From positions 4,216,001 through 4,280,000 of the forward strand of contig BSYQ01000003.1 in NCBI GenBank assembly GCA_030272585.1: a stretch of DNA of 64,000 nt. The letters run 5' to 3'. The notes below the pieces were generated by a model that did not search any database, had not been told where the DNA came from, and saw nothing but the letters and a program-made list of their open reading frames with translations. Below, one piece after another: positions 10,407 to 51,010 of this stretch. Both the position numbers and the translations under genes were made by a program. Each line of letters opens with the position of its first letter. Position 1 is the first letter of the stretch. The stretch is from Bryopsis sp. KO-2023. Its lineage: Eukaryota; Chlorophyta; Ulvophyceae; Bryopsidales; Bryopsidaceae.

Positions 10407-13354
10407 TTAGTAATCCCAGCCTTTGGGCAGTCTGTTGTAGATTCTGGCCATTTTTCGCAACTCCTTGGCATCTCCGGCGAGGTTTTCCCAGATGTTGTAA
10501 TCAGTAACCCTCCAGTCCCAATTGCCCTCGGCTGTTCCGGGACTGTTCATTCGGCCAGAGTTGTCCAATCGCATCAAATCCTGATATCCACACACAACTG
10601 CATGAGCAAACCCTTGCCTACCCTCCCCCGAGAAAAAAAAAAGAAAAAAAAAGAAAAAAGGAAAAACTAAAAAGGATGTAAACAAAATAGCAACACACAT
10701 GGACACAAAGCCCGTGCTCACTGTCCCCGACAACCTTACTCATTTCTTCTTGATTTCATTTTAGTTTTTCATCTCTTTGTCTTGGAAGGAAATTGAACCG
10801 CACCTGCAACATGATCATGCACGTTTTCGAAACCGACTTCATGCTTTCACGAATGAGTGCCCACGCTATGTCATCCCCGTTCATTCGCAAGTACTCTTGC
10901 AAGAACTCCCTTTCGGATTGCTCGCAGCTGTCCTGATACCAGCCCACCGTCGTTTCATTGTCATGGGTACCTGCATGCATGCATGCAAAAACATCAAACA
11001 TCCATCCTTCACGTTTTCAACGAAATGGTGCATGCAGCCCATCCACAGTGCCGATATGGGGTGATGGGGTTTGACCTCACCAGGATACACCACAGAGTTT
11101 TCGTTGTGCATGTGCGTCAGGTGAGTGTTGTCCGGTTTCGACCCGAAAGCGAATTGAAGGACCACCATGCCAGGAGCACCGATTGCTTCCCTGAAAAAGT
11201 CGCACCATTAAAAAAAAACCATCAGCATACATCAGCCAAGGGTTTCTTATGAGCAAAACAGTGGTGGGTTATGCTTCCTTCTTCTTTTTGCAACCAGTCA
11301 GACCAGAGGGAGCCGAGCAGTGCATGACCTACTTGCCACAAAAATGCATAGATTTTCTCTTCTATGTGTATCTATATCTATATCTATATCTATATTTTAC
11401 TATTTTAATTATATTTTTTCAAAATACCTCAATACATGGACGTCCGGGGTGATGACACCAAGGTCCTCCGCAACAATTGGTACATCGCCGATCTTTTCCT
11501 TCAATTTCTCAAACAGAGCCACTCCTGGTCCCTTTTTCCAGACACCGTTGATTGCGGTTTCTTCCTCGGAATCCACAGCCCAATATCCAGCGAAACCTCG
11601 GAAGTGGTCGATTCGAGTTTCGTCGAAAAGCTCCAAAGCTCTTCCCAATCGCTGAGCCCACCAGTTGAAATCTTCCTTCTGGTGTGCCTGGGATTTGGAC
11701 AGGAAACATAGAACTTCAGACACTGAGCAACCCCATCCCTTGAGGAGGAAATGATTCTTTTCTGCCCAGAAAACTGACCCCTTGTGTCGAAACCCAATTT
11801 CCACATATTCACAGGCACTTTTTGTTGAACGAACTGCCAACCCCTCGATAAACCAAGACAGAAAAAATCGATGATTATGATCGCAGCAGGAGGAAGCAGG
11901 AGTTGCTTAAATTTAAACGAGACGGAATCTCACCTCCCAGTCATACAGTGGTGTTCCCCACAATTGGCCGGTCGCACTAAACGCGTCTGGGGGCACTCCG
12001 CTCACGAGGCTTGGCTTCCCTGTTTTGGACAACTCGAACAAACTCTGGTTCGCCCAGACATCTGCACTGTGGCCTCCCACATAAATGGGCATGTCCCCCA
12101 TGATCTTGATTCCCTTCCCATTTGCATAGGCCTGTCGAACAATTTCGTAACAGCAGTTTATGGAAAAAGCAAAATCGACAAGAAAAAAAAAACATGGAGG
12201 GTTTTGCATGGTTGGATCCATTTCGTTCGCATTTTCAAATTTTTTTGGATTTTCAATTTAGCAATTTAAATATGTCAGCTCACGTATTCCATAAACTAAT
12301 AAAAAAGAGCTGTCACTAAGAATAACATTTTGTATAAAATGGACCCCCCCCCCCCCCTCGAAAAAAAAAAAAAAAAAAAAAAAAAGACAAAAAATTTATA
12401 CACTTTTTTAAAATGAAATATTTCTTTGCCATGTTCCATGTAGAGCGAGGAATTTGCCATTAAAGCTCCATCTGTCCAATGCGCAGTGTAAAATCGTACC
12501 TTCATTGCTTTCCACTGCTTGTCGAACAGGAACTGAAGGGCGATGAACTCGTTAATCTGGTTCTGGAATTTCTCCTTGGCCTCTTTCATGGCCTGCTCCT
12601 CCCTCAACCGGATGGGCTCCGGCCAATCCCACCACACCATGCCAGCATATTCCTCGTCCCTTCTCAAGCACTCAAACAGTGCGGAGTCCTCCACCCACGG
12701 CTTTGCCTTCCGGAACTCGTTCATGCCATTCCTGAGCTCCTCGAATTCTTCATCCCCCAGCAACCTTCTGGCCGCCAAATTCAGCAGAGGCTCTTTGATT
12801 TCTGCGCATTTCTGGAAATCGGCTTTATCGCCGGGAATTGCCTCTGGGAATTCGTGATCCCGGAGCAGGTTCAGATTCTTGAGCTCCTCCAAAGAAATCA
12901 ACATCGGGTTTCCACAATTGGCATCGAGCCCGGTGTAAGGGGAATAATACATTTGATCCGGGGGGACGATGGGCAACACCTGCCAGCATTGCATTCCTGC
13001 GCTCTCCATCCAATCGAGCATCCGGTAGCACTCTTTTCCGATTTCCCCAGATCCGTAAGGCCCAGGTAACGAGGTCGGGTGGAGAATCATGCCGACTCGG
13101 CGGCCTCGGTAATTGTCCAAGAACGTTTTGTCGTATTTCTCGTCCAGGACGTCCCCGACTCCGGCTTTTGACACGGATTCCAGCATGGCTCGGCATTGCA
13201 GGGATGGGTGGCGTGGTGCTGACTGGTTGGATCCCATTTCCCTGTGGAATGGCTTGCAAAGAGGGGGGTGGTTTTTTAATTTGGGTCGGCCGTTGCAGAA
13301 AGGAGTCAGGTTGACACCCAGGGTTTCACGGGAAGCTCCACATGGAGAGAACAT
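10407..13354 (-). CDS. DPE1: 4-alpha-glucanotransferase (disproportionating enzyme, GH77), probably plastid-targeted
   Basis: This enzyme transfers maltooligosaccharide segments between alpha-1,4-glucans; in plants and algae DPE1 acts in plastid starch metabolism. Exons: 13354-12500, 12131-11934, 11687-11428, 11190-11081, 10970-10804, 10580-10407, all in phase, giving 587 residues. GH77 signatures in order: GMILHPTSLPGPYGSG, IVPPDQMYYSPY, GDMPIYVGGHSADVWAN, GVPPDAFSATGQLWG, RIDHFRGF (nucleophile Asp), VAEDLG (acid/base Glu), THDNETTVGWY (third catalytic Asp), and C-terminal MNSPGTAEGNW. About 70 residues precede the conserved core. They are basic and Ser/Pro-rich with few acids, like a transit peptide; plastid location is inference. 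The ATG at 13354 is the first in-frame one. A further 5' exon cannot be excluded, since 'aatccaaag' just upstream could be an acceptor. Confidence 0.93.
11367..11397. repeat. TATATC-type short tandem repeat in a DPE1 intron
   Basis: Several copies of a tatcta hexamer lie just downstream (in gene sense) of the third DPE1 exon. Confidence 0.8.
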
Positions 13355-14185
13355 CCTTTGGATTAAAAGAGCAGGAAAAAAAAAAGACACACTCAAAAAA
13401 ACATATCTTCAAAAAAAAAAAAAAAATCTTCGAAGGATATGCTGATGCAGCCCACAAATGCAACAAGATTTGAAAATTTTAGTGTCCTAGGTGATTTTTT
13501 AAAATTCCTGAAGGGTAGTCTGGAGTCTAACAACTTAGATAATTTAGCACACAGAAAATCCGGTTCGGGCGGTCGGCTTTCGTTTCCCAATCCGACTGCC
13601 TGCGGGGCTGAAACATCAAAACAGTTCGCGCAGACAGGTTTTATTCTGTGGAGAACGTTCCGGATGCAGGTACGACACCCTCGAAAGAAGAGCGAATCGA
13701 TGGTTTCGACACACAGAACCAGATCACAAACACAACAGAAAGTCGTCGGCGGAACCTTTTCCACAGTTTTTTTTCGCCCCCTGGCTCCTTAGGAAGGAGA
13801 GGGCGTCGAGTGAGTGGAAGGGCTCCTCGTCGAGTCGGAATCTCACCTGCTGGCGAGGGCTCCGCGATCCACGGTTCTCGCTTTCTCGCTGTCTACGAAC
13901 CGAAAGGTGGAAAAAGAGCAGTTAAAGTATCTGGAGGAATGACTGATAAGATGTGTAATTTATGGAGTGAGACTCAAAAAAATTCGAAGAAAGAGAAAAA
14001 AGCAAAAAACGAAAATAAGAGTGGGTGCTAAAATAGACCTGATAATCGCGTTTTCTTGGCTGGAGAGGGGTGTTTTTGAACTCTTTGCTTCTGCTTCCAA
14101 CGTATCGGAAAAAAAGAAGGAAAAACAGGGAAAAACGTGCAGAGCTGCGAGGAGAAAAAGCAACGATATAAAGAAACGCTTCTGA
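13355..14185. promoter_or_regulatory. Shared divergent upstream region of DPE1 (-) and COPG (+)
   Basis: An 831-bp stretch separates the two start codons. It must hold both promoters and 5' UTRs. I see no core promoter element that I would stake a position on. A minus-strand open frame (13393-13764) has no recognisable product; it could be 5' UTR or a missed first DPE1 exon. Confidence 0.5.
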
Positions 14186-20890: not shown

Positions 20891-23800
20891 ATGTGCGTCG
20901 GGATGTTGGGTCACCCTGGCCGAACGGTGCCACTGGTGGCTGTGGGTGTCTTGTCCGTGGGTTGGGCAATAAGCACCGGAGTCGGAGTGCTTAGACGACG
21001 ACGAAAACTACACGTCCAGCGCCTTGAGAGCCAGGTGAGTGGTCCTTCTCCGAGAAAAGTGAAAACCCTGTCCAATGTTTCGATTTCTGGCTGTAGTTTG
21101 ACAGTCAACTGACTGACGGTTAACTCTGCACTGCGCACAGGCACGGGAGAGCTGCAGCGGGAAACGCGAGGCTGAGGCGGGGGAAGATAGCGAGGAGGAG
21201 TTGGAAATCGGCGAGGTCCAGATTTCCACCCGGGGAGGCGTCGCGCTGGGAGATGTCCAGCGAGCGAGTGCCGGACAGGAGGAGCGAAGATCCTTCGGGG
21301 TCGAAGGTATTACGACGCTTTGGTTCTCATCGTGGTGCTTCTCTTTCATTCACAGTTTGAGCGAGCGTTCAGAAACGAGAGCCTTTTCCAGCTGACGTCC
21401 TCGTGGAGCCAAGCCTTTTCGAGCATGGGCGCAGTATTGTGCTCAAGATTTCGTCTGAGTTGGGGTTTCCGTGGTGTATGTAGGTTCCTCGGACAGTTTC
21501 GGGTCCAAAAGCTTGGCCGAAACACCAAATAATGACGCCTGTTCCACGAAAGGCGTCGAACAGGAAATTGACAAGGGCCTCCAGAGAGTGCGTGCGGGTC
21601 CACAGGGCGGCGAACTCGTTCGCGGGGACCCTCAGTCGGCCATCGAGCGGGTGCAGCACAGGACGGAGGTCAAGACGAATACCTCCCCGCTCAGCACGAG
21701 AGCGTCCTGCAGCCAAGGTAACGAAAACAAGAACCCCCTTGCCATGATGCAGACGATTCGTGACGCTTTTTAAAACCGCTGGAGGTCTAGGATTTTTCGT
21801 TCGGGTGGGAAAGAGCGGCGCTTGAATTCGCGAGTTCGCTTTCGGATGACGACAACAGTGCGGAAAGGGACGGGGGCGGAGTCAATTCGATCATTGCATG
21901 CCTTGTGCGTACGGTTGCGTCGAAGCGTCCTGACATTTGAAAGAATGTCCTGTCAGCAATATGCGCTCAGCACCGTTTCTGCCGAACTGCGCATTTGGCA
22001 GACTTCCGTTTCCGTTGGCACGTTTTTTTTCTTCATGTGATGTCGGGGAGGGTTGTTTACTTGCTCTAACCGAACGGAACCGCTTGTGCATAAACTCTGT
22101 TGATTTTTTTGGGGGGCGTTGGCCGGACCGAGGACGCGTGTAAGCCTTGTAAATATGAAACACTTCATGGAAAAGACCCGGCTTCGGATGGGCGACATTC
22201 AATCGCAAGTTCAGACGGGCGTCACGAAATTTCGCGGACAACTGGCGCGTTCCGCTGGTATGGGTGCGGTCGTGGAGCGCGTCAGTAGTCGAGTGTGTTA
22301 GACGCAATGTTATTGTTCGCGTGGGCCCCAAGTCTCGAGAGAACGTATGCGGAAACTGGTGATTGGAGAATAGGGTTGTGGAGTTCAAGTTCCCGCAACT
22401 CTGGGTGTCTCCATCCTTTTTTGACGCCCGGGAATGAGGGAGACGCATTGAGAAGTCAGACCCTCATGGTGTTGTGTGGTTCCCGGTTGATACAGAGGAC
22501 GTGGGCAGCGACGGAGACACGCCTCTGGCCAGCGAGCTGGGAAGTCTCGACTCCCTGCCACCGGAGGAGGCAGTCGCCAAACTAGAGGCGCAGAACCAAG
22601 TTCTCTGGGCTAAGGTTCGAGCCAGCTCCAAAGTGCAAAAGGAGAACGTGGAGCTCTGCGCTGAACTGGATAGTGCAAGAGACGAACTGGTGCGCTGATA
22701 ACTGCGTCGTTGGTCGTTTTGCTTATCTTGCGGGGCCGAAACGCCATCTGTCGGAGTGCTGTTTTTGTCTTGAACTGGACTCTGCGCGTGTCCAGGCGAT
22801 TGCGAGGACCGACGCAGAGGACCAGATCCGGAGACTGGAAGAGAGCGGCGATGCTCTTAAAGGGAGGTTGAGAGAGCTCGCGAAAGAAGCCGAGGTACCG
22901 TGGTAGCTGTGTCAGCGAGAAAAAGAGGTTTTCAATGCTTACTCTTCCAAGATTTCTTTTAGATACTCGCCCACCAAGATTCAAGAAAATACAACACACC
23001 AGATTTAATCCCCACCTCCTATCGGTACTTTACACCATTGTTTTACACTGGACAACCAACCCAACCCATTTCCTAAAATACCCAATCTACAAATCGATAG
23101 GAAAATGCATCGAGAATTCGAACGATGTAGGAAGCAAAGTTAAAAAAATTAAGTGAAGAGTTTGCAAAATCTGCAAATCTGGATTCTTACGAAATGGCTG
23201 TTCTTTTTTTTTGCTGGATTTGTTTCCATCAGGACAACGCGGCTGTAAAAAAGGAAAATTCAGAGCTGTTGGCTGAGGTGGAAGACCTGAAGTTCCAGGT
23301 TCTCATGGCTAAGAGTAGCACATCGAGCGATAACGAACAGAAGAATTATGAAGATGTTGTGAATGAGCTGAGGAAATCAAACAAGAAACTTGTGATCCAG
23401 GTGAAGCAAGCTCAATCCAATGAAGAGCGCCTCAACAAGGAAGTCGACGAATTGAGGTGAGAGCAGAATGCCCTATACTATGCACCATATTTCTGACAGA
23501 CCGAATTTCAAAACAAAATAAAACAAGGGCTTGAAAAAATATTGTGGGTACAGTGTTTTGGTTTGGTTGGCAGTTTGTTAATGGAGCAAATCCAAACGAG
23601 AAACCCATCAAAAGCATTCAATGTGGTGGTGTTGAAAATTTTTCTTCATATATATATACACATTTTTAATTAATTTATTATTTTTTTCTTCAACGAATTC
23701 ACACCACTATTCATTTAATAGTGTTTGATTTTTTCATATATTGAAATGTTGTCAGGTCTGCCCTCAAAGAATCACAGAATAAGGCAGGTCCTTCCGGTTC

Positions 23801-26800
23801 AGACTCGGTGATCAGTGATCTCCAGTGGAAACTGGAGGAGTACAAAGCACAATCCGAGGAGTGTGAAATACTGGAATCGGAAAACATCAGGCTGAGAGCA
23901 AAGCTCGAAGACCTGGAAAAGAATGCAGAAACTCTCAAAACCCAATGCTCCAAAGCTGAGGCCTTGACAGAAAGACTCAAGCCCAAGGTGGATGACTTGG
24001 AAAACGAGATCTCCTGTCTGGAATCTCGCCTGGCCGACTTGGAGCAAGAAAACGACGGGCTGTCGAGAGCGAAAAATACACTTGCTGAGGAGCTGGCGAC
24101 TTGTCAAAGGCAGTGTACGGAGTCTGAGGAAGGCCGTTCTTACCTGACATCGGTCGTGGAAGATTTGGAAAAGCAGCTGGATGCTTGTTCCCCCGAACAA
24201 GTGGTGGAGCTGCGCAGCCTCATGCGAAGGATGGAATCGGACAACAGCAGGCTCGAGTCTGACCTGGAAATCCTATCCATGCAGCTCCGATCCAGAGAGC
24301 AAGGGGGAGGCTCGATGTCTTACGACATGAACTCCACCATCCCTGAAGCTTGCGAGGGGGTATCATACGAGGGCTCAGTTTTCAGCGAGCAACACGATTT
24401 GGGACATACTCTCCACGAGGAAAGGTCGGAGCAGCTGGTGGATCTATCGGAAGATATCATGACGGAGATGGCCAATGTTGCGAATGTGGGGGACTCCCTG
24501 AATTTGGGGATTTCGATGTCTTATGTTCAGTATGCGGGGCTGTTGGCGGCGGTGCAAAAAGCCATGAAGCAGCTGGAGGAAGCAAGGCTATCGTCTGTGA
24601 CGAGTCCGGATGCTTTCACGTTGCTGGACCAAACCCTGAGCCGATCCCTGAGCATCACACGTAAGTGAAATGATCCCAGAATGCAAACGACAATTCTATT
24701 TTTTTCAAGTAATAATTTTTTTTTATTTTTTATAGATATGTGTTATCGAATCGACTGCTTGCTAGAAAACACAGTGTATTGGAGCTGTGGTCCCTTTGTG
24801 GAAAAGCTTTTCGTCAAACAAGGTCAAAGATTGAATATTAAGAGAAAGAACATGCTGAAACGACCGGCCAATCAGACTGAAAAAAAACACCACTGTTTGT
24901 AGAAGAAAAAGCCAAAAACAAATACCGATAGGTTCAAAGTTGAAGGAAATGGAAAGGCGGGGAACTGCAAAAGTATATACCATAAAGACAAAACAGACCA
25001 AGAAATCTTAAAAAACAACCCAAGAAAATAACGTTGAGAAGATTAGTAGAGAGCAGCAGCCGCCAGGGGGCATTGTATGACACATCAAGCAAGGAAGAGG
25101 GATACCACAGTTTAATCGTTCTGCGAAATTAGGTTGTCCGCCACCAGTTCAACGCGACAATCATGTCGGACAAGGCAGCAAGTCGGAGCTGCTCCCCCAA
25201 AAAATGCCACCCAGCACCCTCTTCGTGGCCAGAACTAACCCGGCTTACGAAAGTCAACCCAACAGTCGTGTCAGCAGCCCCTCAATTATGAACTTCAATC
25301 GACCTCACAGCGCGTTGGGTGTGAGTTCATACGATTCAAGCTACTGTTCCAGAGTCGGATCCAGTAGTCTGTCTGACTCGCATCCGATCGCAAAGAGAGG
25401 TAGCTCCACGGGGCAATCATCTGTGAATGGGGAAGGTACAAAAAATAACGTAACAAGCACCCACACACACCAGACAGAAACAGAAACTGAAACAGAAACA
25501 AACACACACACATACACAAACACTCAATATCTACAGACAGATATCAATGTAGTGTGGTAGTACTCACTGGCCTTCCTGGGGTTGTGAAATCGTAAACTTG
25601 TGTGGGCTGAAACACACCGATCTGTTTCTGGAAAATGCAATGAGTTTTTCTTTGCTCTATGGATTCGCTCAGGTGGCAAAGCTCAAGCTGTGGATGGGGC
25701 AGTAGAAAAGAGGTTGAACGAAATCGACAGGATCCTCAAGGAAAAGGGGAGCGAGATTTCGTTCATGTCGGATGTCTTAACCAGACTCCGAGAGCAACTG
25801 CAAAACAGAAAAGTCTTGTCGTTGCAACAGGAAGTACAGCTGGAGTACTTGCAGCAGCAACTCGCCGCTCCAGTGAGTTGATTTCTCATACGACACCCAC
25901 CCATGCTCCCAGTCAAGATCATGCTTGAAAGGAAAATTCACCGGAAGTGTTCCACCGAGCTATTGGATTATGCTTCTGTTGTTTGAATTGGTGTGTATGT
26001 GTTTTGTTACCAGGACAAGGTGATCAAGCTGTCTTGGGAGGTCGAAGGGCTCCGGAAGAGTTTCGGAGAGTCCGAAAAGGAATTGGAGGCTCTACGTGAG
26101 CAAAGCGACCAGCAGCAACAGGAGCTCACCATCCAATGGGAGACCAAGCAGCAGGTCATTCATTCTGTCCTCCATCTTGACTGTTCCTGCAATGGGGTGT
26201 GTGTTTGTGTGATCCAGCCCTCAGCAGGAATTAGACGGTTTACACTTCAGGATAGGAAATGTCTGTTTCGTTTTGAAAAAAGAGCCTAAGATTAGGTGAT
26301 GTTTCCGATCTGTCTGCTTCCCCCTGCCCCCTCTTGTTCATCTGGAGCTAGGGAATATAGGATTCGTACAACAAAAAAAAAAAAAGCAGCACATCAAGAT
26401 AGACAGTCTTAGAGTTTTCTAGAATTTCTGTTCGGTTTTGCAGGCATTGGCAGAATCGCAGGTGCATCATCATGAGGTGTCCTCTGTTGCACAGCAGGTG
26501 GACCACCTCCAACAAGCCAATGATGAACTGGAAACAGAAAAGGCTGAGATGGAGCAAGAGCTGGCGGAATGCCGAGAGGAGCTGGAAACCTTGCGGAAAG
26601 AAATGGAGGCGATCGATCCAGGCCGGAGCGTCCGGGTGGGGGCAAATGACATGGAAGAGGAGGTGGTGTCTGGCGAGGAGGAGGAGGAGGAAGAAGATGA
26701 GGAAGATGAGGAGGAGGAGGAGGAAGAGGATAGTGTTAATCAAGCAAATGACGGGGTTGTGGTGGAGGGAGGTGTCCCCGGTAATGTAGTTCAAGAACAG

Positions 26801-29800
26801 GTGAGGCAGTGTGCCGGTTGCATTTAAATTTGAAATAAAAAAGGATGTGGAAGTGGTCGATCGTCGTTGTTGACGTTTGCTTGTTTCGTTTTTTGCTTTC
26901 AGTTGAAAGATATTTTGACCCGGCTGCAAGACGTGAATTGCTCGATGGACGGAGCAAAAGCTTGGGCGGAGCAAATCGTGCTGGAGAAAAATCAATTGAA
27001 GTCTGCAGCAGAGGTGTGATTGACATTTTTGAAGTCTGAATATGTTGGTTTTCCCTGTGTGGGGGTGGTTTATGGATTAATGGGGGTGTAATTTGCTGGG
27101 TTGTTTTTTCTAGGAGGTGGAAGAAGAAACATACGACATGTCAGACAAGGCGGAAGCCATGCTGTCGATCAGAGATGATCTTGAAGCAGAAATTCAAGGG
27201 TTACAGGCAGACGTCAGACTGTCGGAATCCATCAAAGAAAAGCTGGAGAACGCAGTCAGAAATGTGCAGGCAAGTTTCTTGTTTGCTGGCGTGTGTTTCA
27301 AAGTTCTTTATTCTCCCTCCAAGTTCCAGAAAGAAAATTAGGATTGATGCTGCTGAGAGGAATTTGGCGTTATTTGGAAGTGATTTGTTTTGTTTTATTT
27401 CGACTCGATAAACATTTTATGTCATATTTTTGTTGGAGCTTGTTGCTTTTTTTATTTCTCAAGTAGGAGAACTAAAATAAAGGATCTGCGAATATTGCAG
27501 GCAGAATTGAAGGCGACGGCTGGTTCAGCGGCTTTGGCCGAGGAACAGTATTGTGCGGACATCAGAGAATTGCAGCAAAGGCTTGCGGATTTGCAGAGCG
27601 CTGCTGACTGTGAAGTCGGCACCTTGAAGGGAACCAAAGAGTTCCTGGAAGCCGAAAACGAACGGCTGGAAAGCCATGCACTCGACCTTTCTGTTCAGCT
27701 GGAGAAAACTGAAGAGGTGAGCCAACAGATTTGCCAACAATGGATGCAGCAGAAAATTGTATAAAACACCAAGGAAGGTGTTGGAAGTCAATTTCAAGAA
27801 TAACATTCCTGACTACTTGTGTTTTGTCTTTTTCCCCCCCTTTCCTCAGAGCGTATCGGACGTCAAATCGCAGCTGAACAGCGAACAGAGGTCGCACCAG
27901 GCCACGAAACAGGAGGTGGTTTCTGTAAATCAGATACTCGCGCAAGAGAGGCGCATCGCCAAAGATTCATTGGCAAACGCGGAAAGAGAGATTGGCATTC
28001 TCAAGGGTGAGGTGGATGGTGCCTTCGAGAAGTTGGAAGCCCAGCGTGAGAATCTATCGAACGAGGTCCAAGGATGGAAAGCTAAGGTTAGAAAAAAAAA
28101 GGGGGGGAGGGAGCTGTTGATTCGTCAAGGAAAGAAGCTATTGATTATCAAGTAATTCTAATAAATCATATGATATTTTGATGTATGTATATTGTGTGAG
28201 CTCCAAGTTCCTGACAGGCCGACTGGGTGTCTGACACTTTCCTTTGCAATTCTGTTCCAGGCATCTGAGCTTGAAGCTGTACTGGACCAAAGAGAAAAAT
28301 TGAGAGAAGAAGTGAAGGACTTGTCCAAACGGCTGTCCTCGAAAGAGGTGGCCTTGGATTCAGAATGCAAAAAGTCTTCGACCCTGAGTTTGACCAGGGA
28401 TAAACTCCAGCAGGTAGGGCACATTCTCAACAAGAAGAATAAATACAAAGAGGAAAGGACAACTCAAAAGGGGTTTTCTGGAAGGAAGTCTCCAGGACAG
28501 CAACCAGTACAAATTCGCATTTCCAATCCAAATTTGAGATGTACTGCAAGTGTATTGGTACTTTTTCTTTCCTTTTAAGATGAAACATGGGCGAGGTCCT
28601 GAACGTTTGGTGAAAATATCCAAGAATGTACACATTCATTTTGAACCGATCTGAGGTGTTGCAATTGGGAATGCTGTTGTGGTGACGATATGTTGTGTTG
28701 GGCATCCCCCTTTCCCCGTTTTGGCGAATTTCCAGGAAGTCTCGTCCATACAGCTGGTGGTCCATCGACTGGAAGATAGGGTGACATCCTCAGAAGCCGA
28801 AGTTTCCCGTTTAAATGAGTTGTTGGAGTCAGAGAGGGGCAGGTACAGTGCTGCAGCTCGATCATGGGAGGAGGAACTCGACGGAATTGCAGAAATGACT
28901 GTGCCGAGAAGCTCCTGGCCCGTTTCAGTTCGAAAACTGGTGGAGTATTGGTAAGTGCAAAAACTCTTTGACCGTTTTCTCCCCATAGCTGATTGATCCC
29001 CCGTTTGTTTTGGAGAAGTCTGGGAGGGTTGTCTTGATCTTGAAATCGACCCCTTTTTGCATTTACAGCGAGCAAGCTGCAGCCGACAAGGTGGAATCCG
29101 AGCAAAGAGCTGTTCAAATTGAGCTTGAACAAGAAGTTGAAGACGCCACAGATCGACTGGAAGTCATTGAAGCCCAAGGAGAGAAAGACTTGAAAAAAAT
29201 TGAGACTGAAAAGGCTGCTATCATGCGACGAGTTACACAGTTGGAGGGTGAAATGAGGGAAAGGGAGTGCAAACTTCAGGAGAAAATCTCGCATTTGGAG
29301 GTACTGATTGTCCCAATTTTGGTAATTTTGAAAAGAAAAAGAAAGCATTTTCTTCGTTTCGAGGTGGCTTACGATGCTTTTATGGACCTATTTCCTTGTT
29401 GGAAAGAGAACTGGGCTAATGTTGTTTTTCCTCTCTGGGATATGGAATCCTTATTTATGTGTGTGTGTGTTTGTGTGTGCGTAGGAGTTATCTATGTCGG
29501 AGAAAGGTCGATTGGAATCCCAGGTGTTGGATTTGCGACAAAGACTCGAGGATGCAGAAGAATCAGCAAAAGAAATGCAAAGTGAATTGACCGCAAAAGT
29601 TGAAGAGAAGGCTGGCCAGGTAAGGGGTGTTCTTCCTGAAAAATGGGCAACGCAAATTTGGGTCGAAGCGCTCCGTTGAAAGGATGTTTTGTTCTGATTG
29701 TTGGTACCTTAAATACTTTCTCATTGCATGTATTGTGTTTGAGCCAACCTAGACTGGGTGAAATCAAATAATTGAAGCCTGAAAATGTGGTTTCCTGTTG

Positions 29801-30798
29801 TTGTTCCAGCTTGTGGCCCTGCAGGAGAAGGCTCGTTCAATGATGATGGAAAAAGACGAGGAGATCCAAAGACTCAAGGCACCCGCTCGTATTTCCCTCA
29901 GTGGGGAGAACTGCCGAACGGCCTCCATGTCGAGTGAATTGAACTTGCCGACTCCACAGCTGATGGCTATCACTGCTCGTGACCTACCAAGCTCCATCGT
30001 CCCAGCCCATTCTTTCGAGAGCAATCCAGGACATGATGCGGCTGTACCCAGCGGTTCTCCCACAAGTGTTGGGGGACCTGGGTCTGCCAATGAAGAAGCT
30101 AACAAAGAGTTGCTTGCAGAGCTCCAGGCTGAGAGGGAGCGAGTAAGTGCAGCTGTTTGTCTTCCTATAAATGACTTATGATTTTAAGCCGGGGCGATGG
30201 GGATGTACCTTGTATCGTTTTTTCGGAATAAAAGCTGGAATTCAGTGGTGGTATTTTTGCAAAGAGACACTGAAGTTTCAAATTTGGGGGGTGTCTTTGT
30301 TTTCAATGGCGGAGAGCATCAGAGACTGTTGATAAAAGCACCTTTCTGATGTCTTTTCTGTTGGAAAACGAAAACGCGACAGAATGTTGATACTTTTTTT
30401 TTTTTTTTTTTTGGGGGGGGGGGTTGGCTTTCAAGAATCGTTTGAGAAACTAATGTGAGTGCTTGTCAAATCCACCGCAGGTGTTCAAGTTCCAGCAAGA
30501 GCTCGAGGACAATGAGAGGACGCATGCTTTACGTGACAAAGCCAACAATATCTTGAAGGCTGAAATTGCAGAGCTAAGAAGGCAAAGCAGCCGGGGGAAT
30601 GTGGATGTGGCATACCTCAAAAACGTGTTGGTTTCGGCTTTCGAAAAAGGAACTTTGCCGAAAGACAGCCCCATGGTGGAGGTCCTGGCAAGATTGTTAC
30701 ACTTTGGACCAGAGGATATGGAGAAAATCAAAAAAGGGGGGCCTGGTAGTCACACTCGAACCTCGTCTTTCACTTTGTTTCAAGGATGGGGTCGATGA
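20891..30798 (+). CDS. Long coiled-coil golgin with C-terminal GRIP domain and hydrophobic N-terminus
   Basis: This is probably a trans-Golgi tethering golgin. GRIP domains are known to bind Arl1-type GTPases. Twenty-one exons: 20891-21034, 21141-21306, 21484-21717, 22496-22689, 22796-22894, 23233-23456, 23756-24660, 25148-25435, 25673-25872, 26014-26154, 26444-26800, 26903-27013, 27114-27269, 27501-27716, 27850-28086, 28261-28413, 28736-28950, 29069-29300, 29485-29619, 29810-30142, 30481-30798. They close in phase to 1685 residues. Residues about 200-1500 are heptad-rich coiled coil with a Glu/Asp tract near 26680-26735. The last exon holds the GRIP core VAYLKNVLVSAF ... EVLARLLHFGPEDMEKI. 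Residues about 13-34 (VPLVAVGVLSVGWAIS...) are hydrophobic, followed by LRRRRK, unusual for a golgin. The ATG directly follows an in-frame TAG. The 25148 acceptor is uncertain (25175 also fits phase). Intron 13 has a GC donor. Confidence 0.88.
27270..27500 (+). other. GC-AG intron in the golgin gene
   Basis: The donor reads CAG|GCAAGT, the classic GC-donor consensus, and the acceptor is ATTGCAG. Splicing here keeps phase and the coiled-coil frame (NVQ|AELKATAG). No GT donor nearby does as well. Confidence 0.85.
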
Positions 30799-33081
30799 CC
30801 AAGTTTGTTGATGAGAGAGACTCATACATGACCGTTTTCTTACCTTTTTTAAAAGAAAAATTGAAATTCTTGGACTGATGGGCAGAGGAGGGTGAGAAAA
30901 AAAAAGAATGGAAAAGAAAAAAATGTGCCCTGTGTTGTAGTGATAAATATATATATATATATATTGTGGGGGTGGGTGGGTTAGGTTTGTGACAGTTGTT
31001 ATGCGGGTTGCTTGATATTGTTAGCGTTGGCCTCCCGAGGGGACCGGGTCGGGATATCTTTTTTTTCGGAGGGAATCCAGTTTACTGTTCCTTTCTGTTT
31101 TTTTTTGTTTTTGTTCGTTGCGGTGTTTTGTTCTTTCTTCAATAAAGTATGTCCCGGATGCCCAGTGTTCGTGGAGGATGGGGAAAGGGGGGGGTGGGGC
31201 CGGGGTAACTGTATGTATGTAGGGGATGGAGGTTTGTGTTCCATATCGGTTTTAAAAGTTTCCGTTTTTGCCAGGTGTTCGTTTGCCCTTGGTGGTGGTT
31301 TTTGTCTTGTATCAAGGACTGGAATTTTCTTTGGTTTTGTTTGGTTGGTTTTCAGGTTGTTGGACTGAAGGATGTATGTACAATAAGTGTTGTGGTTGGT
31401 GCGTTGAAGGTCGCCTATCTGTGATGGGTTCCAGCATGATTCCATAAAAAGTCTCTCTTAGAACTCCAGCCTATTGCATCACTGGGTTGACTAAGAAGTT
31501 GACATAGAAAACTGTGAGCAGTCTATCTCCATTGTGGATGGTTGTTGAACTGTTGGGGATTTTTTTTCTTCTTTGTTTTGCTCTCACTCCACTTACTCGT
31601 ACTTAAAACGTAAACCCCAGATGTACAAATCCTCTTCCTGAGACGTTCTCATGGTCTGACGTTCATTAGGAAGTGTCGCCAGATGTGGATATTAGTTGAT
31701 GTCTTGTCGCTATGACCGACTATCCGAACTTGTGATTACTCGGGCCCAACACCGCCAGTTTGTCCCACAGAGTGGCGCGGCACAAAACAATCAAAATAGA
31801 AAAAACCACCCCCAAAACCTAAAATAATCCCCCAGCAACAGTTGCAAGGGAAGAAGAATCAATCACAGATGATCTCATCGATCCAAATATCATGGCATCG
31901 CCAAACATAAAACGAAGCACACCATCCAGCATTCATTTCATGTGAAATAATAAGCATCTCATTACTTCAACAAGTGTTTTCCCCAACCATTTCGAACATA
32001 TCGCTCATCCATTCAATATGTTGTGAAAAGGAAAGCCACTGTACATAAACAAAAACAGCAAGCACTTTGAGTCCTCCCCGCTCACTCTTTTCCTCTTCAA
32101 AATTAACTGACATTGCCCTTCCATCTATTCCATTCTCTTCTGTTTTTTCACAACATGTATTGTGACATCAGGAATGTGAAGATATGGCACTACAATGCAC
32201 ATTTCTTTTTAGATGCATCAAGGAGTAAAACTCTTGACTGATGCTTGTTAATTTTCAGGGAAACTCCCCAGAAGTAATGTGGAAATATTCCCATCAATGG
32301 TCTGAAGAGTTTATGCTTTTTGATTGTGAAAGGATTTCCCCAATCCCAAACAGCTCTGACATCTGAACGAGTCTTGTGAAGTTGGGAATCTTAGCAAGGG
32401 GGTAAGAGCGCCAGATTTTCTGCCCAAGATGTTCAAATATTTTCATGTTTTCAATTTTCTATTCTCAACAAGTGGCCACTGCATGGAGTGTAATCAGTAT
32501 TTTAAAAACCCGATGCAAAAATATTGATTGCAAGCAAGCAAGCATGGAGTGTTTGTCTATTCCAGCCAGATATGGTACATAGGTGAGCGTGGGCACCAGC
32601 CCGAAAATGCAGAAAACTCTTTTCCCAGCAGCCACCCCACTCTCATGGGTGGTTGGCGAGATTTTTGGACGTGACAGATTTTCTTGTTTTTGTTCAGTTT
32701 GGGGTCGAGAAGACGAGCAAGATGGTATGGGCTTCGTCCGTGGCGATGCTGTGAAAGTGCGGTCGGTGACACGACAGCATCGCTCCATGCCGTCTCCGTG
32801 CTTCGGTTCAACCGAAAGAACGCCCCAGCGGTTTGTGCTTGAAGGAAAAAGAGAAAACGACGATTCAAGTGTGTCTGCCTGTCGGGCGAGGGGGGATTGA
32901 GGTCCGACTGATGACGTAAGCAATCGAAATAAAAATTCGACGCAGTGCAATTCTCCCTCTCGGATTTTTGCTCACGGACTGCGATTTGTTGAGTTATCGA
33001 GGGATTGCGCTTTCGTTTTTTGTTTTGCGGCGGGCTTGCGCTAGATATTTCGTTCCGTTCTTTGGAGGATACTTTTTCCCG
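30799..33081. other. Golgin 3' UTR, intergenic DNA, kinase 5' UTR exon
   Basis: A poly(A) signal AATAAA at 31141-31146 probably ends the golgin transcript. A TA repeat lies at about 30947-30964. The stretch from about 31450 to 32950 shows no coding exon that I can support. A likely non-coding first exon of the downstream kinase ends at 33081, before a good donor (ccG|GTGAGTG). Confidence 0.5.
31141..31146 (+). terminator. Poly(A) signal of the golgin gene
   Basis: AATAAA about 340 bp after the golgin stop codon, followed by GT-rich sequence. Confidence 0.55.
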
Positions 33082-44039: not shown

Positions 44040-47000
44040 TCACGACATGGCAGTGGTGGTGCCACCCTGACCTGGGTTGAGAAAAAACAGCATGAAAAAC
44101 CAGTCTCCAGCAATAAAACGGAAAGCTGGAATACGTACACTCACCCAGGTCTTTTCTTGTTCTTTCCATTGCCCCAAAAGTCGAACAAATTTGGTCAACC
44201 AGGTGGAAAATTCAGCAGAAAAATCTCTCAAAAATGCTTTATATTTCTGCGTTCAAACCAAACCAGCAGGAACCCCCTCCAAAAAAAAGGGACCAGCAAG
44301 ATAGACGCCAGACTTTTGAGTGAAAACCAAAAAGCACTCCCTCGGAACAGCTCCTGTCACTTTGCAGCAGACCGGGTGGATGAATCGATTTCCAGCTCTT
44401 GGCAGTGCGCAATCAGACAGGAAGTGTTTTGACACTCACCCCGCCTCTGGATTATCATTTCCTCCCAAGCCTCGATGAAATTGTTCCTCTTCCGAGCATA
44501 ATATTCTGAACTGCTCGCCAGGGCACCCACGTTCACATCCTCGAATTTCGGCAGTGCAGCAGCGTCCCCACTCTCATCACTGCCATTCTCCGTAGAGACA
44601 TGGAGCACCTGAAAAGAACGAACCCCCCAAAATTAAATTAAATTAACCAAACAAACAAGCAAAAATGCTCTTCCTTTTTCCCCTGAAATAAACCCCCCCG
44701 AGAATTGAAGAGAGATGACAGATTTTTCTCAACTAATAAAAAACCGAAAAAACAGTTTTTTATTTGTTTACACCCTGTTTTTTTAATTGAAGTTTTTCCC
44801 TCCATATTTGGTTGCTGTGACTTGCTTCCCCCACCAACCTGGGCAAAAATAGTGTACAGTTCGCTGGCATTCTCGAGCTCGCCGATGTTGTACTCCACCA
44901 TGTGATTGACAGGGAGAGCAGAATTGAAAAAGCGGTCCAATCTGTATGACCAGATGGTGCGTTCGCAGGACAGCAGGACCTTGTTCAGTTGAATGTAGCA
45001 TTCCGACTGCAATTCCATTTCCCTCTTCTTCAGCTCCTGTGCTCATACAGCAAACCAAAACAAAACGTCAGAAAACAAGGGAAAATTCATTCCAACCCCA
45101 CATGTGACTTAATCCCCCCCCCCCAAAAAAAAAAGAAATCCTCAGCAAAGCCAAAAGGGAAAAAGCAGTTGGGGCTGCAACATTTGCAATTACTGGTAGG
45201 TTTCTTTTTCAAAAGCACCTCGAGAACACCCAGAGCTTTGCCGATTTTCCTTCCTTGTTCAACGACGGCTTCATAGCGTGCATAGTCTTCGTCCATACTG
45301 GCCCTCATAACCTCCTCATCGCCGCTGGATGAACTGCTGCCAGCCCCGCCAACTGCTTCCTTCTGCAACAAGATTTTCCACAACAAAAAACCATGTCTTA
45401 TTGATTCACTTGAGAGAAAAATGCTTTCTGTGTGCTTTCAACCACCATCAATGGACCCCTCTCCACAGGTCGAAAGACAGTCTCCTGTACCTGAAGCGTG
45501 CGACTGACATGGAACTTCCTCCGCCATTCTAGGTCCCTTTGCTGCCCCTGCAATCGCTGCTCCAGTTGGCCTTCTCTTTCCCTCAGTCGGGCCATTCTTT
45601 CAATGACGGCCTCTCGGCGTTCACGCAAATACGCTCCAAACTCAGCTTGCCACCTGGGGGGAGGATCCACATGGTACTCGAACTGGGTCCTCATCTCCCT
45701 TTCCCTTTGGAGCCATTCGTTGATGAAATTTTCCTTGTCTGTGTACTTTGATTTCTCCCCATGCTGATATTGAAAACAAAAAGGGCAAAAAAAGTCAGCA
45801 ATACATAGTCGTCTGTCTGGGAGGATTCGAAAAAAATAATAACAATAAAAAAGTATATGTATATGACATCTCCCTACAGATCAAACCATAATCTTCCTAC
45901 CAAAAGGATTCCACATAAACAACATTTGCTCCTCCACCTCCACTAAAAAGGGAAAAAAAAACAGCGCTGACGGCACATTTTCAATTCTCACCCTGTACAG
46001 AAACGATTGATACTGTTTTTCGGCATCATCTCTTGTGGGCATCGCCGTTCCTTCGCCAGGGCAGTGCTCCAAGTGCTGATATCCCCCTGAGCTGCTCCAG
46101 TCAGCACGGCATTTCCAGCAAAAATGGTGCCGACATCGAGGACATGTCACATGATCGCAACCCCACATCTTCTCACACAAACAGAAGCACCGGGGGCAAT
46201 CCTTGATATACCTGTTCCCACAGAAAAAGCCACCCATGTTTTCTCAAACTTCCATAACTTTTTTCAATGAAAATCATGCACTGGAAAAAATTGTGTGGCC
46301 GAGATCCCAAATGCAACATGACGACTGATTCCAGGAAGATTTGTACATGTGGAAATGCCAATAGCACGAATTTGGACATGCACCACCATCCAAGTAAACA
46401 TACCTAGCTATATAGTGTTGCTCTTCGCCGGATTCGTTCGATCCTACGTCTTGCACTGTTGTGGTGCTGTCTCCAGTGTTGGAGTTGGATTCTGGGCTCG
46501 CGGCTGGCCCCCCTGCATCCAACTCACCTGGCCTATTTCCTTGCTCATCTTTCGTGGCATTATTAGCAGGCGGAACATTATTCTTTCGAGCATCCATCTG
46601 CTGTCCTCCGAGATTCAAGCCTGCAAATAACCAACACCATATCAAAACCAACCACCTTCCAAATCAGTTTTTGAAAAAGCGGACGGGAGTGAATATACAC
46701 ATATACATACATGCACCAGCCTGTAACACGTTTCTGTGAACTGGCTGCACTCGGCCTTTTGGCCGTGCGCAAAAAAACTTTAATTCGATCAAAATGCACT
46801 CCACGGTTGCCCACCTTGCAGCCTTCCTCTCTCATGCATACAATCTTCAGATATGGATTCTGGCTGTCTGGCGACTCCCCCAGCCAAGCCCAAAACCTCG
46901 GGACCAAGCTCATCCTTTCCCTCTCCGGCATCCTCCCCTTCTGCATTCCCTGGGTCAAGATGCAGGACGATCTGGTTGCAAAACGGACTGGCATCTGTCG

Positions 47001-50000
47001 GCGATGGTCCCATTTCAGTCCCCTCAGCTCCCATCGAATCCGACCTACCGTCGATTTCCCTCTCTGACCCGTTCGAGATGTCCAAAAGCTCAGGACACTC
47101 CAAACTCAAGCCCTCACCAGAATTCATGGTGTCGCCATCCATTGTAGAGGGTCCGCACCCAGTGGTGGTGGTGGCATCGCTTTCGATTGGAATCTGTTGA
47201 ACCACCACCCCCTCCTCCTCCTCCTCCTCCTCCTCACCCATTGCAGGCTTGGCGTCATTCATTGTCGCACCACTCCCACGACTCTTCCCACCCCTCCTCT
47301 CTGAGCAAGGCGACGGCATCACTGTCAGCCCCAATCGATCACCTGCAGTTTTCCTCTGCAGCTCTAGGACGGTCGCCTCCCGAGGCAGAGAAGCTGTCCG
47401 CTGGATATTTCCAAACCGCTTGGACGGGCGCTCCATCACGTTGCGAACAGAACCCCCACAATTGGACGCACAGCCACCACTCTTGGCTCCCCGAGCAGCG
47501 ATATCTCTGCACAAGGTACCCCAGATCGGGATCTCAGGTTCGCTTGCCACCCGTTGAGCCCGGGTTGGTTCTCCTTGTTCATCATCCGAGCCAGAGAAGA
47601 GTTCGCCCATGGGAGTCTGTTTTCCATCTGTGTTGCGCTCGTTTCTGAGCAACTTCTTGGCCTTGCTGTTCGGAGAGGTAGCCCTGGACGTCCCAGGAGT
47701 TCTAAAGCTGCGTTTTCCCACCACCCGGATTGCATCCAGCGTTCCTGGATCCACGCTCTGCCTGTCGACAGTCCTATTCCCATTTCCACCATGTCGCATT
47801 CCAGGGGTACGCGCTTTCCTGCGCCATCCCCCCAGAATCGATGGCCCATCCCTGGTCGCCTCTTTTCGGGCTTCATTCGACTTTCCCCTTGCAGGGTTAC
47901 CAAACAACCCTCCCCCCAGGGTCCAACCGCTCGCCATCATCTTATCCTTTGGTGTCTCAGGGTCAGCTGGATCTTCCTGAGGTTCTTTACCCATGTTTGC
48001 ATCCCTGGCGTCAATATCGCTGGCCATCTCCACATCAGCCCCCCCAGAATTGTTCTGCTGAGTTTCATCCCCCTGCAGCTCCTCATTGAAACTGCAGTTC
48101 AGCAGGTATCCAACCGGTCCTTTCACTCTGAGCAAATCGCTGGCAGCTGCAGCCCTCATGATCCTGTGCCGAAGGCTTCCCATTATCCCAGCTCTTTTGA
48201 CATCTGCTCGTGGCTTTTCCCTACCCTCCACAGGGGTCGAGGCTTCGACTGGATCCAACCCCTTCTTTTCCTCAGCATCGGGCGAAACAGGGTCCTTTCC
48301 ATTTCCAACATCAGCTTCCCCAGCCGACGTTTTGGTAGCAGGCGTCGGCACGTCAGTTGATCGTCTTTTGACTTGACCGTGTTCTATTCGTCGAGACCTT
48401 CGACGGTTTATCCGGTGTCTATAAAAATCTAGTGCAAAATCTAGTCCTTCCCTGTGAGCTCCAGGATCAGGAACCAGCGCATGGGGTGGGGGAGCCAGCG
48501 CAAGGGGTTGAGGCTGGGTTTGTGGTTGGGGTTGGTCATCATTTGCAGGTGGGCCTTCCATCTGTTCGGCTCCGCCTGCCCCTTCTTGGCGAGGTGCAGG
48601 AGCTTGCCTGTCGCCACCTGCAGCCTCAGCTCTGGGAGCGTCCGGCCTTCTGACGTTTATGTTTGCAAGCTCTGTCCTTATTTCACGAAGCTCCCATCGT
48701 GTCGTTGCGATGTCCTGCAATAGAGTGTACCTTGTAATCGGCAGATTCGAGCACGTGCCACTACACCCTCAATCGTATTTAGTGTGTTTCCTTTAGTAGT
48801 GTTATCCCAGCAATAGTTGCAGGCCACACTAATTCACGGAAAACCAAAACATTCACAAGTAGTGTGCAGATTTCGGAACTAGTGTCGTCCACACTATTTT
48901 CTCTTTTTCTGAAATTTCTGCCGTTTACGGAAATATTGCAGGATACACAAAATACGATCAAGAGTGTACTTTTCAAAACAGTATCGAATCGGGTATTTTT
49001 GCTGTGATGGGACTTTTTTTGGTTGCTTACATTTTGCAGCTCTCTTGTGTGTTCCTCGATCCCCGCCTCCATTCTCAGCCAACAAGTGATATCTTCACAA
49101 GATGCAGGCCAGTGCTCATCAGATCCACACAGCAGGCAGAATCGATGTCCACACCCACACTAGGGATAACAAGCTTCCATGAGCCAAACGTTTGGAACAC
49201 ATATGATCTGGAAATAGGATTTGTGAGCTTGTTACGACCATAACATGGGAAAACATGAACGGCGAGTACTCTGTTTTTGTTTTTTTCCTTCTAAATTTCA
49301 AGTGGATGAGATTTCCTGCCACACGGGAAAGAAATTTATTCCTATTTCTTATTGAGATCCATGACTTCGCTTACTTCCAGCGTCAAGCAGACATTCGGGC
49401 CAAGCTTCACCGAGGAGAACCTGACGACATTCGTGCAACCCTCCTTTGTGCAATGGCGTTCGTTTCTGGCCAAGGTATTGCGCCGAACCTGAGCACCACA
49501 CCCCTCCATCTTAAAATCCCCACCCTCCTTTGACCAAAATCCTCACCAATCCACCCAAGCGAAACATATTCTTTGCAGGCTGTGCACAATAATCGAGCGA
49601 TCGGACACACTCATATCTTCAACTTGTTAAGAAACTTGTTTAACGTCCAAAGAGCATCACAAAATGGAAGACATTTTTTTTAAATCGGTAAGGAAAATCC
49701 ACATGTCCTACATGTAAAATAATGTAATGAAATATATTGTAATAGGTAAAAACCCAATGTGTTGTGAAACAACTGTATTGCTGCGGGTTGGTCGAGCACC
49801 TGTTTGTACGTTTCGTAGTATTTGGAGGACATCAGAGTGGCCACCATGTCTTCAGAAAGAAAGCCAGGGGTTTTTTCCTTGTGGGCGATGCACCACGGGC
49901 AGGTGACGCTGCCGTTGAATCGCTCCTGACTCATACCTGCCATCTAATCAATCGAAAAAAAAATCCTTTTCATTTTTTCTTCTTCTTCTTCTTTTTCTTT

Positions 50001-51010
50001 CACCATGACTGATGGAAGAAATTTAAAATTGAAGATCCATGGCAATACAGCTTCCCATGTGCAGTACAGCTCTATGGTTTATCGGAGGAAAAAAAAAGGG
50101 GAAAAGAAAATGCATGTACCTGCTCGATCTCGTTTATGACAAACATTTTGGCACAGTCCTTGTGGATGGGATGGTTGCAGAGCTCGAAAAACCTCACTCC
50201 GTCGCTGGACCCCACTGCACAGCTCTCCTGACACACAGGGCAGGTGGCATTGGGAGCAGGCTGGCTGGGCAAGCCTTGAAAGGGGCAATGCATTTCCACC
50301 ACCTTCTGATGGTCCCACCCCTCCCTCACGAGCAGTTCGTGCGCGGTGGGCTCATCGATGTCGCACACCTGAGGGAGGTGTTCAAGAAAAGAAATCGTCG
50401 TATCGCGAATTGTTTCGACACAGAGTCCCACGAGAAATACACAAAAGAAAGACAGGGGTGGAGCTGTGGAGGGTCTGGCATTTCTGGGACGAAAACGATG
50501 TGTAAAAGAGCTGTTCCACACGAAGAAAGCCCTAAGTTTCCGCAATCATCTCCAAAATTAGCACCGTTCCGAAACACAGTCCAACTCTCATAACCAAGAA
50601 CGGCAAAGACTGGGCTCTACAAGAACCAATCAAGAGAGACGAAAAACTGAGGCGTTTAGCGTGGGTGCCGAGTGTCATGTTGTCCCCAAGTCTTCTCTCC
50701 CCCCCCAATCCGAACAGGGTTTGCCGTTCTTTCCTCGACACATACCCTCCCCACTTTCTTCAAGGGACCCCCGTGTTCTGCACGCTTATCGCCAGAAGCG
50801 TTCGTTTACCTTCGCGATCGTGCACACGTCTCTCCACCGCGCTTTGTCCAGCTGGTCCGGGGCCAAAGTGTTCCCCTTCCCACGTGCGCGCATCTGTTCG
50901 ACCTCGCAATCGCTGTCCTCAAAAGGATAGGGGGCCTCGTCGCCATCCTCCATATTGCCAGGACTTCCGTCTTCCCAAACGTCCACGGCACCGGATACGT
51001 CGTCGGCCAT
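44040..51010 (-). CDS. Ariadne-type RBR E3 ubiquitin ligase with giant insert between IBR and Rcat
   Basis: RBR ligases take ubiquitin from an E2 bound to RING1 and pass it through a Rcat cysteine. Thirteen exons: 51010-50810, 50368-50120, 49943-49774, 49465-49375, 49159-49031, 48714-46815, 46620-46404, 46211-45992, 45763-45491, 45362-45219, 45036-44839, 44608-44440, 44071-44040. They close in phase to 1330 residues. RING1 is about 110-168 (CPVC ... CNHPIHKDC ... CPWC). IBR is about 208-258 (HCTKEGC ... CGCGHRFCLLCGSDEHWPASC). Rcat is about 988-1025 (KDCPRC ... MWGCDHVTCPRC ... HFCWKC), with the catalytic Cys in WGCDH. The C-terminal Ariadne region has CERTIWSYRLDRFF and ELENASELYTI. Normally about 20 residues separate IBR from Rcat; here about 730 do, mostly from one 1.9-kb exon coding disordered Pro-, Gln-, Arg- and Glu-rich sequence. 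Confidence 0.9.
48766..48966. repeat. Imperfect inverted repeat in an RBR intron, possible MITE remnant
   Basis: The left arm (about 48766-48791, AATCGTATTTAGTGTG) is an imperfect inverse of the right arm (about 48941-48966, CACAAAATACGATCA). Inner stretches with CCACACTA/TAGTGTG also pair. It lies just before the 1.9-kb exon. No coding capacity and no clear target duplication. Confidence 0.4.

Follow-up and report, generated by a model that had tools for sequence, protein, structure and literature searches.

A Bryopsis gene model for a probable Ariadne-like RBR ubiquitin ligase with a long insert, predicted to be mostly disordered, in the IBR-Rcat linker

Results

The 64,000-nucleotide window from Bryopsis sp. 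KO-2023 analyzed here belongs to a contig of nuclear eukaryotic DNA, as judged from the spliced genes that it contains, among them those for coatomer gamma, GH77, and PP2C. The GH77 gene (10410-13408, minus strand) encodes a 4-alpha-glucanotransferase with an N-terminal extension that is possibly a targeting peptide. A long, multi-exon gene for a coiled-coil protein (21100-30800, plus strand) includes a 0.9-kb exon at 23751-24656; its Pfam matches are to generic coiled coils. The gene of interest lies on the minus strand and comprises 12 exons, all joined by GT-AG introns that range in length from 128 to 441 nt (Table 1). With splicing read from the genomic sequence, the joined exons form a single frame of 1346 amino acids. 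The coordinates and phase that a sequence-only reading had assigned to exons 5, 6, 7, and 8 were borne out: the four are flanked by GT-AG sites and contribute in phase to this one protein. That reading had also described the exons other than 6 and 7 as ordinary in size, which agrees with lengths of 114-273 nt for the internal exons other than exon 6. The exact C-terminus is uncertain because an intron is possible near GGCGG/GTGAGT in exon 12.

Table 1 Exons of the RBR gene, in order of transcription.
Exon	Position	Strand	Content	Basis
1	50810..51010	-	ATG at 51010, acidic N-terminus, start of UBA-like region	GT donor
2	50120..50368	-	UBA-like helices and first part of RING1 (CPVC...LCNHPIHKDC)	CUL9 UBA-like/RING1 alignment
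3	49800..49943	-	Remainder of RING1 (CPWC) and RING1-IBR helix region	Exon model, CUL9 alignment, ligand pattern
4	49375..49488	-	First half of IBR (C-x4-C)	Pfam IBR, aa 202-257
5	49031..49159	-	Second half of IBR (CGCGHRFCLLCGSDEHWPASC) and start of IBR-Rcat linker	Pfam IBR; ligand spacing complete over the exon 4-5 junction
6	46815..48714	-	1900 nt, 633 residues; mostly disordered insert (predicted)	Open frame, coding composition, splice sites, fold
7	46404..46620	-	217 nt, end of insert; final codons EEQHYIAR, start of conserved linker helix beside Rcat	Alignment to ARIH2 SETANYISAHTKDCP; acceptor 46620
8	45992..46211	-	Complete Rcat (RING2) CPRCFCLCEKMWGCDHVTCPRCRHHFCWKC, catalytic-type Cys1003	Pfam IBR_1, aa 988-1024
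9	45491..45763	-	Charged, probably helical, after Rcat	Exon model
10	45219..45362	-	C-terminal region	Exon model
11	44839..45036	-	Possible Ariadne-domain helices (ELENASEL)	Weak HMM match
12	44357..44608	-	Last exon, to stop	Exon model; 3' end at about 44357

Homology searches confirmed the core of the proposed RBR ligase. Two Pfam families alone matched the whole modelled protein, both above cut-off: IBR (9.7e-8) and, covering Rcat, IBR_1 (1.1e-7). When the protein with the insert left out was compared with PDB sequences using phmmer, the best matches were ARIH2, CUL9, and ARIH1. The zinc-ligand patterns of RING1 (amino acids 110-168), IBR (211-257), and Rcat (990-1019) are complete, and Rcat places Cys1003 in the sequence WGCDH. 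RING1 aligned to that of CUL9 and precedes the IBR, and the exons that encode the three domains are in phase and bounded by good splice sites in this sequence-level gene model. By analogy with other RBRs, the protein should accept ubiquitin from an E2 bound to RING1 and load it onto Cys1003. RING1 of RBR proteins usually follows the pattern C-x-H-x2-C-x2-C; the Bryopsis sequence (50120-50368, minus strand) reads C-x-H-x2-H-x2-C, a RING-H2-like arrangement in which histidine takes the place of cysteine at one ligand.

The designation of the protein as Ariadne-type held in part. The alignment to CUL9, in which similarity is moderate, begins at query residue 46 and so takes in the UBA-like region as well as the RBR, but the C-terminal Ariadne domain fell below significance. 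ARIH chains were not matched when the C-terminal part alone was compared with the PDB, and pairwise ARIH scores of this region were often equalled by shuffled sequences. An HMM built from ARIH1 and ARIH2 gave a weak match to part of exon 11 (3.8 bits, E 0.003 for one target) with no excess over shuffles. An Ariadne domain would be expected in this part of the protein, and exon 11 possibly encodes helices of one. A long charged stretch, probably helical (RERREAVIERMARLREREGQLEQRLQGQQRDLEWRRKF; 45219-45763, minus strand), separates Rcat from the putative Ariadne helices and is possibly a second expansion.

Exon 6 looks like real coding sequence. Its frame contains no stop in 633 codons, compared with a mean of 26.9 and a minimum of 12 in 500 composition shuffles, and its other frames contain 6-37 stops. 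Trinucleotide composition was exon-like (below 0, from -0.09 to -0.62) in 29 of 30 intervals; the lone neutral interval, at 48474, scored 0.08, and introns score 0.09-0.63. Third-position GC is 0.52 in exon 6 and 0.64 in the other exons pooled. We considered and rejected a repeat origin for the exon: the only repeats found were a CCT/Glu microsatellite and a weak 6-nt array, and the window contains the exon just once.

Intron 6, which separates exons 6 and 7, is of normal length (194 nt) and intron-like in composition. Its donor scores 9.6 and its acceptor at 46620 scores 13.1, higher than any other acceptor in the region, on a matrix made from the 11 introns of the same gene that renders these scores partly circular. 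Scored by leave-one-out, the donor (8.0) and acceptor (8.3) are still among the best of the gene. In silico, skipping of exon 6, exon 7, or both, or retention of intron 6, introduces a frameshift or stop before Rcat. Joining exon 5 to exon 8, exon 5 to exon 7, or exon 6 to exon 8 was rejected because every one of these forms loses Rcat; for the exon 5-to-8 form, which the sequence-only reading had named as one that would refute it, the predicted frameshift leads to a stop at amino acid 291. Given these splice sites, exons 6 and 7 are therefore needed to reach Rcat in frame. A strong donor (8.8) lies in frame at 47342 on the minus strand inside exon 6, and its use would drop 176 residues from the insert.

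The linker had been put at about 730 residues, and 732 are counted between the last zinc-binding cysteine of IBR (Cys257) and the first of Rcat (Cys990). In the phmmer alignments, ARIH2 has a spacing of 26 residues and CUL9 one of 32, which leaves a net excess of about 700. The sequence-only reading was thus right that the usual linker is short, although its figure of roughly 20 residues was slightly low. A short IBR-Rcat linker, usual for Ariadne proteins but no formal defining feature of them, is absent here. On the IBR side, exon 5 runs past the last IBR cysteine as EDITCWLRM, which aligned to ATIRKWLTK of ARIH2. On the Rcat side, EEQHYIAR at the end of exon 7 leads into YIKDCPRC of exon 8, and the ARIH2 counterpart is SETANYISAHTKDCPKC. 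When the real end of exon 7 stood in for the linker, in place of an arbitrary N-terminal stretch of exon 6, the score against the same ARIH2 chain rose from 44.8 to 46.9 bits, and HYIARYIKDCP was matched to NYISAHTKDCP. Because EEQHYIAR/YIKDCP matches ARIH2, the residues before Rcat appear to be the conserved linker helix; their homology to SETANYISAHTKDCP therefore places the insertion within the linker, immediately before the Rcat-side helix. Judged from these alignments, the extra sequence breaks the linker in its middle. Insertion upstream of the helix would thus leave the ubiquitin-transferase module (helix plus Rcat) intact.

An AlphaFold prediction for exon 6 alone, from a single sequence, assigned 575 of its 641 residues a pLDDT below 50 (a few residues at the end are intron-derived), a result in line with disorder but not specific to it, as single-sequence AlphaFold scores many folded proteins low too. 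Helices were predicted at residues 3-19, continuing the IBR-side linker, and at residues 84-113, a basic segment with pLDDT up to about 80. The aromatic content of the insert is 2.3% and its FoldIndex is negative; together with the low pLDDT, these values are consistent with an insert that is mostly disordered. An NLS-like basic stretch and a poly-Glu tract had been reported, and both are present, the former as a bipartite sequence at amino acids 383-397 (RRRSRRIEHGQVKRR) and the latter as an 8-Glu run at 773-780. The insert also contains two RxxSxP and twelve S/T-P sites; motifs such as these are frequent by chance in sequence of this kind and are no evidence of function. The insert had no significant match in Pfam or the PDB. 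Its relatives were not found in viral or prokaryotic genome contigs, nor relatives of the Rcat exon in viral contigs, collections that are not expected to contain eukaryotic genes. Literature searches yielded no described RBR with a long IBR-Rcat insert, an absence that is weak evidence.

Discussion

We favor the reading, to which we assign a probability of roughly 0.7, that this locus is one gene for an Ariadne-like RBR E3 ligase whose hinge contains about 700 extra, mostly disordered residues that likely serve as a tether or regulatory region. We infer that the gene is expressed in the modelled form, that its product is catalytically active, and that the insert has such a role.

The same DNA could be read as two adjacent genes, one whose UBA-like/RING1/IBR product has a disordered tail and stops at about 46790 and the other for an Rcat protein that starts from an in-frame ATG at 46597 in exon 7; neither product would by itself be a complete RBR. 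An in-frame stop does lie a few codons past the exon 6 donor, such that retention of intron 6 ends the protein at amino acid 920, and an ATTAAA hexamer follows that stop by about 20 nt. With two genes, however, the top-scoring acceptor of the region would have arisen by accident; intron 6 also has a well-scoring donor and the length and composition of an intron. RING1, IBR, and Rcat are moreover ordered on one strand, and the broken linker is completed across both parts; we consider the two-gene arrangement quite unlikely. Somewhat less unlikely is a dominant shorter isoform, in which a splice from 47342 to 46620 or a cryptic acceptor in exon 7 (such as 46600, 46597, or 46420) takes out some or all of the insert in frame and full-length exon 6 is a minor or retained-intron form. 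The 47342 donor is strong and keeps the Rcat frame, and exon 7 contains in-frame AGs, but no pyrimidine tract accompanies these cryptic acceptors, and they do not rank with the highest-scoring sites. Exon 6 is moreover stop-free and exon-like throughout, a state that would not persist in an ordinary intron.

In microbial eukaryotes, disordered sequence commonly expands by neutral change, and an origin of this kind would make the insert less remarkable. It is conceivable, at a very low probability, that the protein is an RBR in form only, a pseudo-enzyme or a ligase under relaxed constraint that has been inactivated or decoupled by an insert that grew by drift. The lower third-position GC of exon 6 and the failure to find relatives of the insert in Pfam, the PDB, and viral and prokaryotic contigs would fit such drift. 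The linker of HHARI is sensitive to changes, as prolines or deletions lower activity (PMC5548887), so an insert this long could impair catalysis, which is a point against the reading that we favor. On the other side, all zinc-ligand patterns and the catalytic-type cysteine are intact, the helix just before Rcat is conserved, and the frame has been maintained over 2.1 kb.

The RBR mechanism depends on a mobile Rcat that is attached by a short linker. In HHARI free of E2, the linker between IBR and Rcat is disordered; it becomes a ubiquitin-binding helix (PMC5548887, PMC7904520). The segment beside Rcat of ARIH1 forms a helix guided by ubiquitin and moves with Rcat as the ubiquitin transferase module, shifting the catalytic cysteine by about 60 Å (PMC7904520); thus, the Bryopsis insert would sit where the part that recruits E2 meets the transferase module. 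The same linker helix contacts the I44 patch of donor ubiquitin in HOIL-1 and RNF216 (PMC9834252).

For a single ligase with an expanded hinge, we propose that the front half (UBA-like, RING1, and IBR) would recruit E2~ubiquitin and the back half (helix and Rcat) would carry ubiquitin on Cys1003, with the insert acting between them as a long tether and a regulatory or docking region. Rcat could then reach much beyond the distance seen for ARIH1. The cost would be a lower local concentration, for which the insert or the C-terminal domain would compensate by docking. A self-avoiding-chain estimate puts the ends of 732 residues about 27 nm apart, with a local concentration of about 30 uM, compared with 3.7 nm and 10 mM for 26 residues; it treats the linker as a free chain and takes no account of closure through the C-terminal domain. 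Transfer in cis would still be possible, yet at a lower rate if neither the insert nor the C-terminal domain docks. The likeliest benefit of the insert seems to lie in regulation or docking. It is tempting to speculate, though we hold this only tentatively, that a short hinge was converted into a long-range tether with docking and possible nuclear-targeting or phospho-regulated motifs of its own, which would set E2 loading spatially apart from substrate ubiquitylation, perhaps in trans between molecules.

If real, the protein offers a natural experiment on the slack that the moving part of the enzyme can tolerate. A linker nearly thirty times longer than usual, expanded just before the helix that grips ubiquitin, would make it possible to ask directly whether linker length or the helix-Rcat module alone matters, and it may show how disordered regulatory sequence joins a ligase without breaking catalysis.

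Among known RBR ligases, ARIH2/TRIAD1 and ARIH1/HHARI share with the modelled Bryopsis protein the order RING1-IBR-Rcat, the zinc-ligand pattern of IBR and Rcat, the linker helix beside Rcat, and a catalytic-type cysteine in G-C-x-H. The Bryopsis protein differs from them in the C-x-H-x2-H-x2-C pattern of RING1 and in a C-terminal region where any Ariadne domain is too diverged to be recognized with significance, and its 732-residue linker contrasts with the 26 residues of ARIH2. The RBR region of CUL9 aligned from the UBA-like region through Rcat (E 1.1e-10); CUL9 has a 32-residue linker, and the cullin part of that protein is absent from the Bryopsis model, in which Pfam recognizes IBR and IBR_1 alone. 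Parkin is far lower in sequence score, and its tether spans tens of residues rather than hundreds. However, that BRcat-Rcat tether is partly disordered, and its regulatory helix binds to RING1 (PMC3940038), which makes parkin a precedent for regulation from the tether position.
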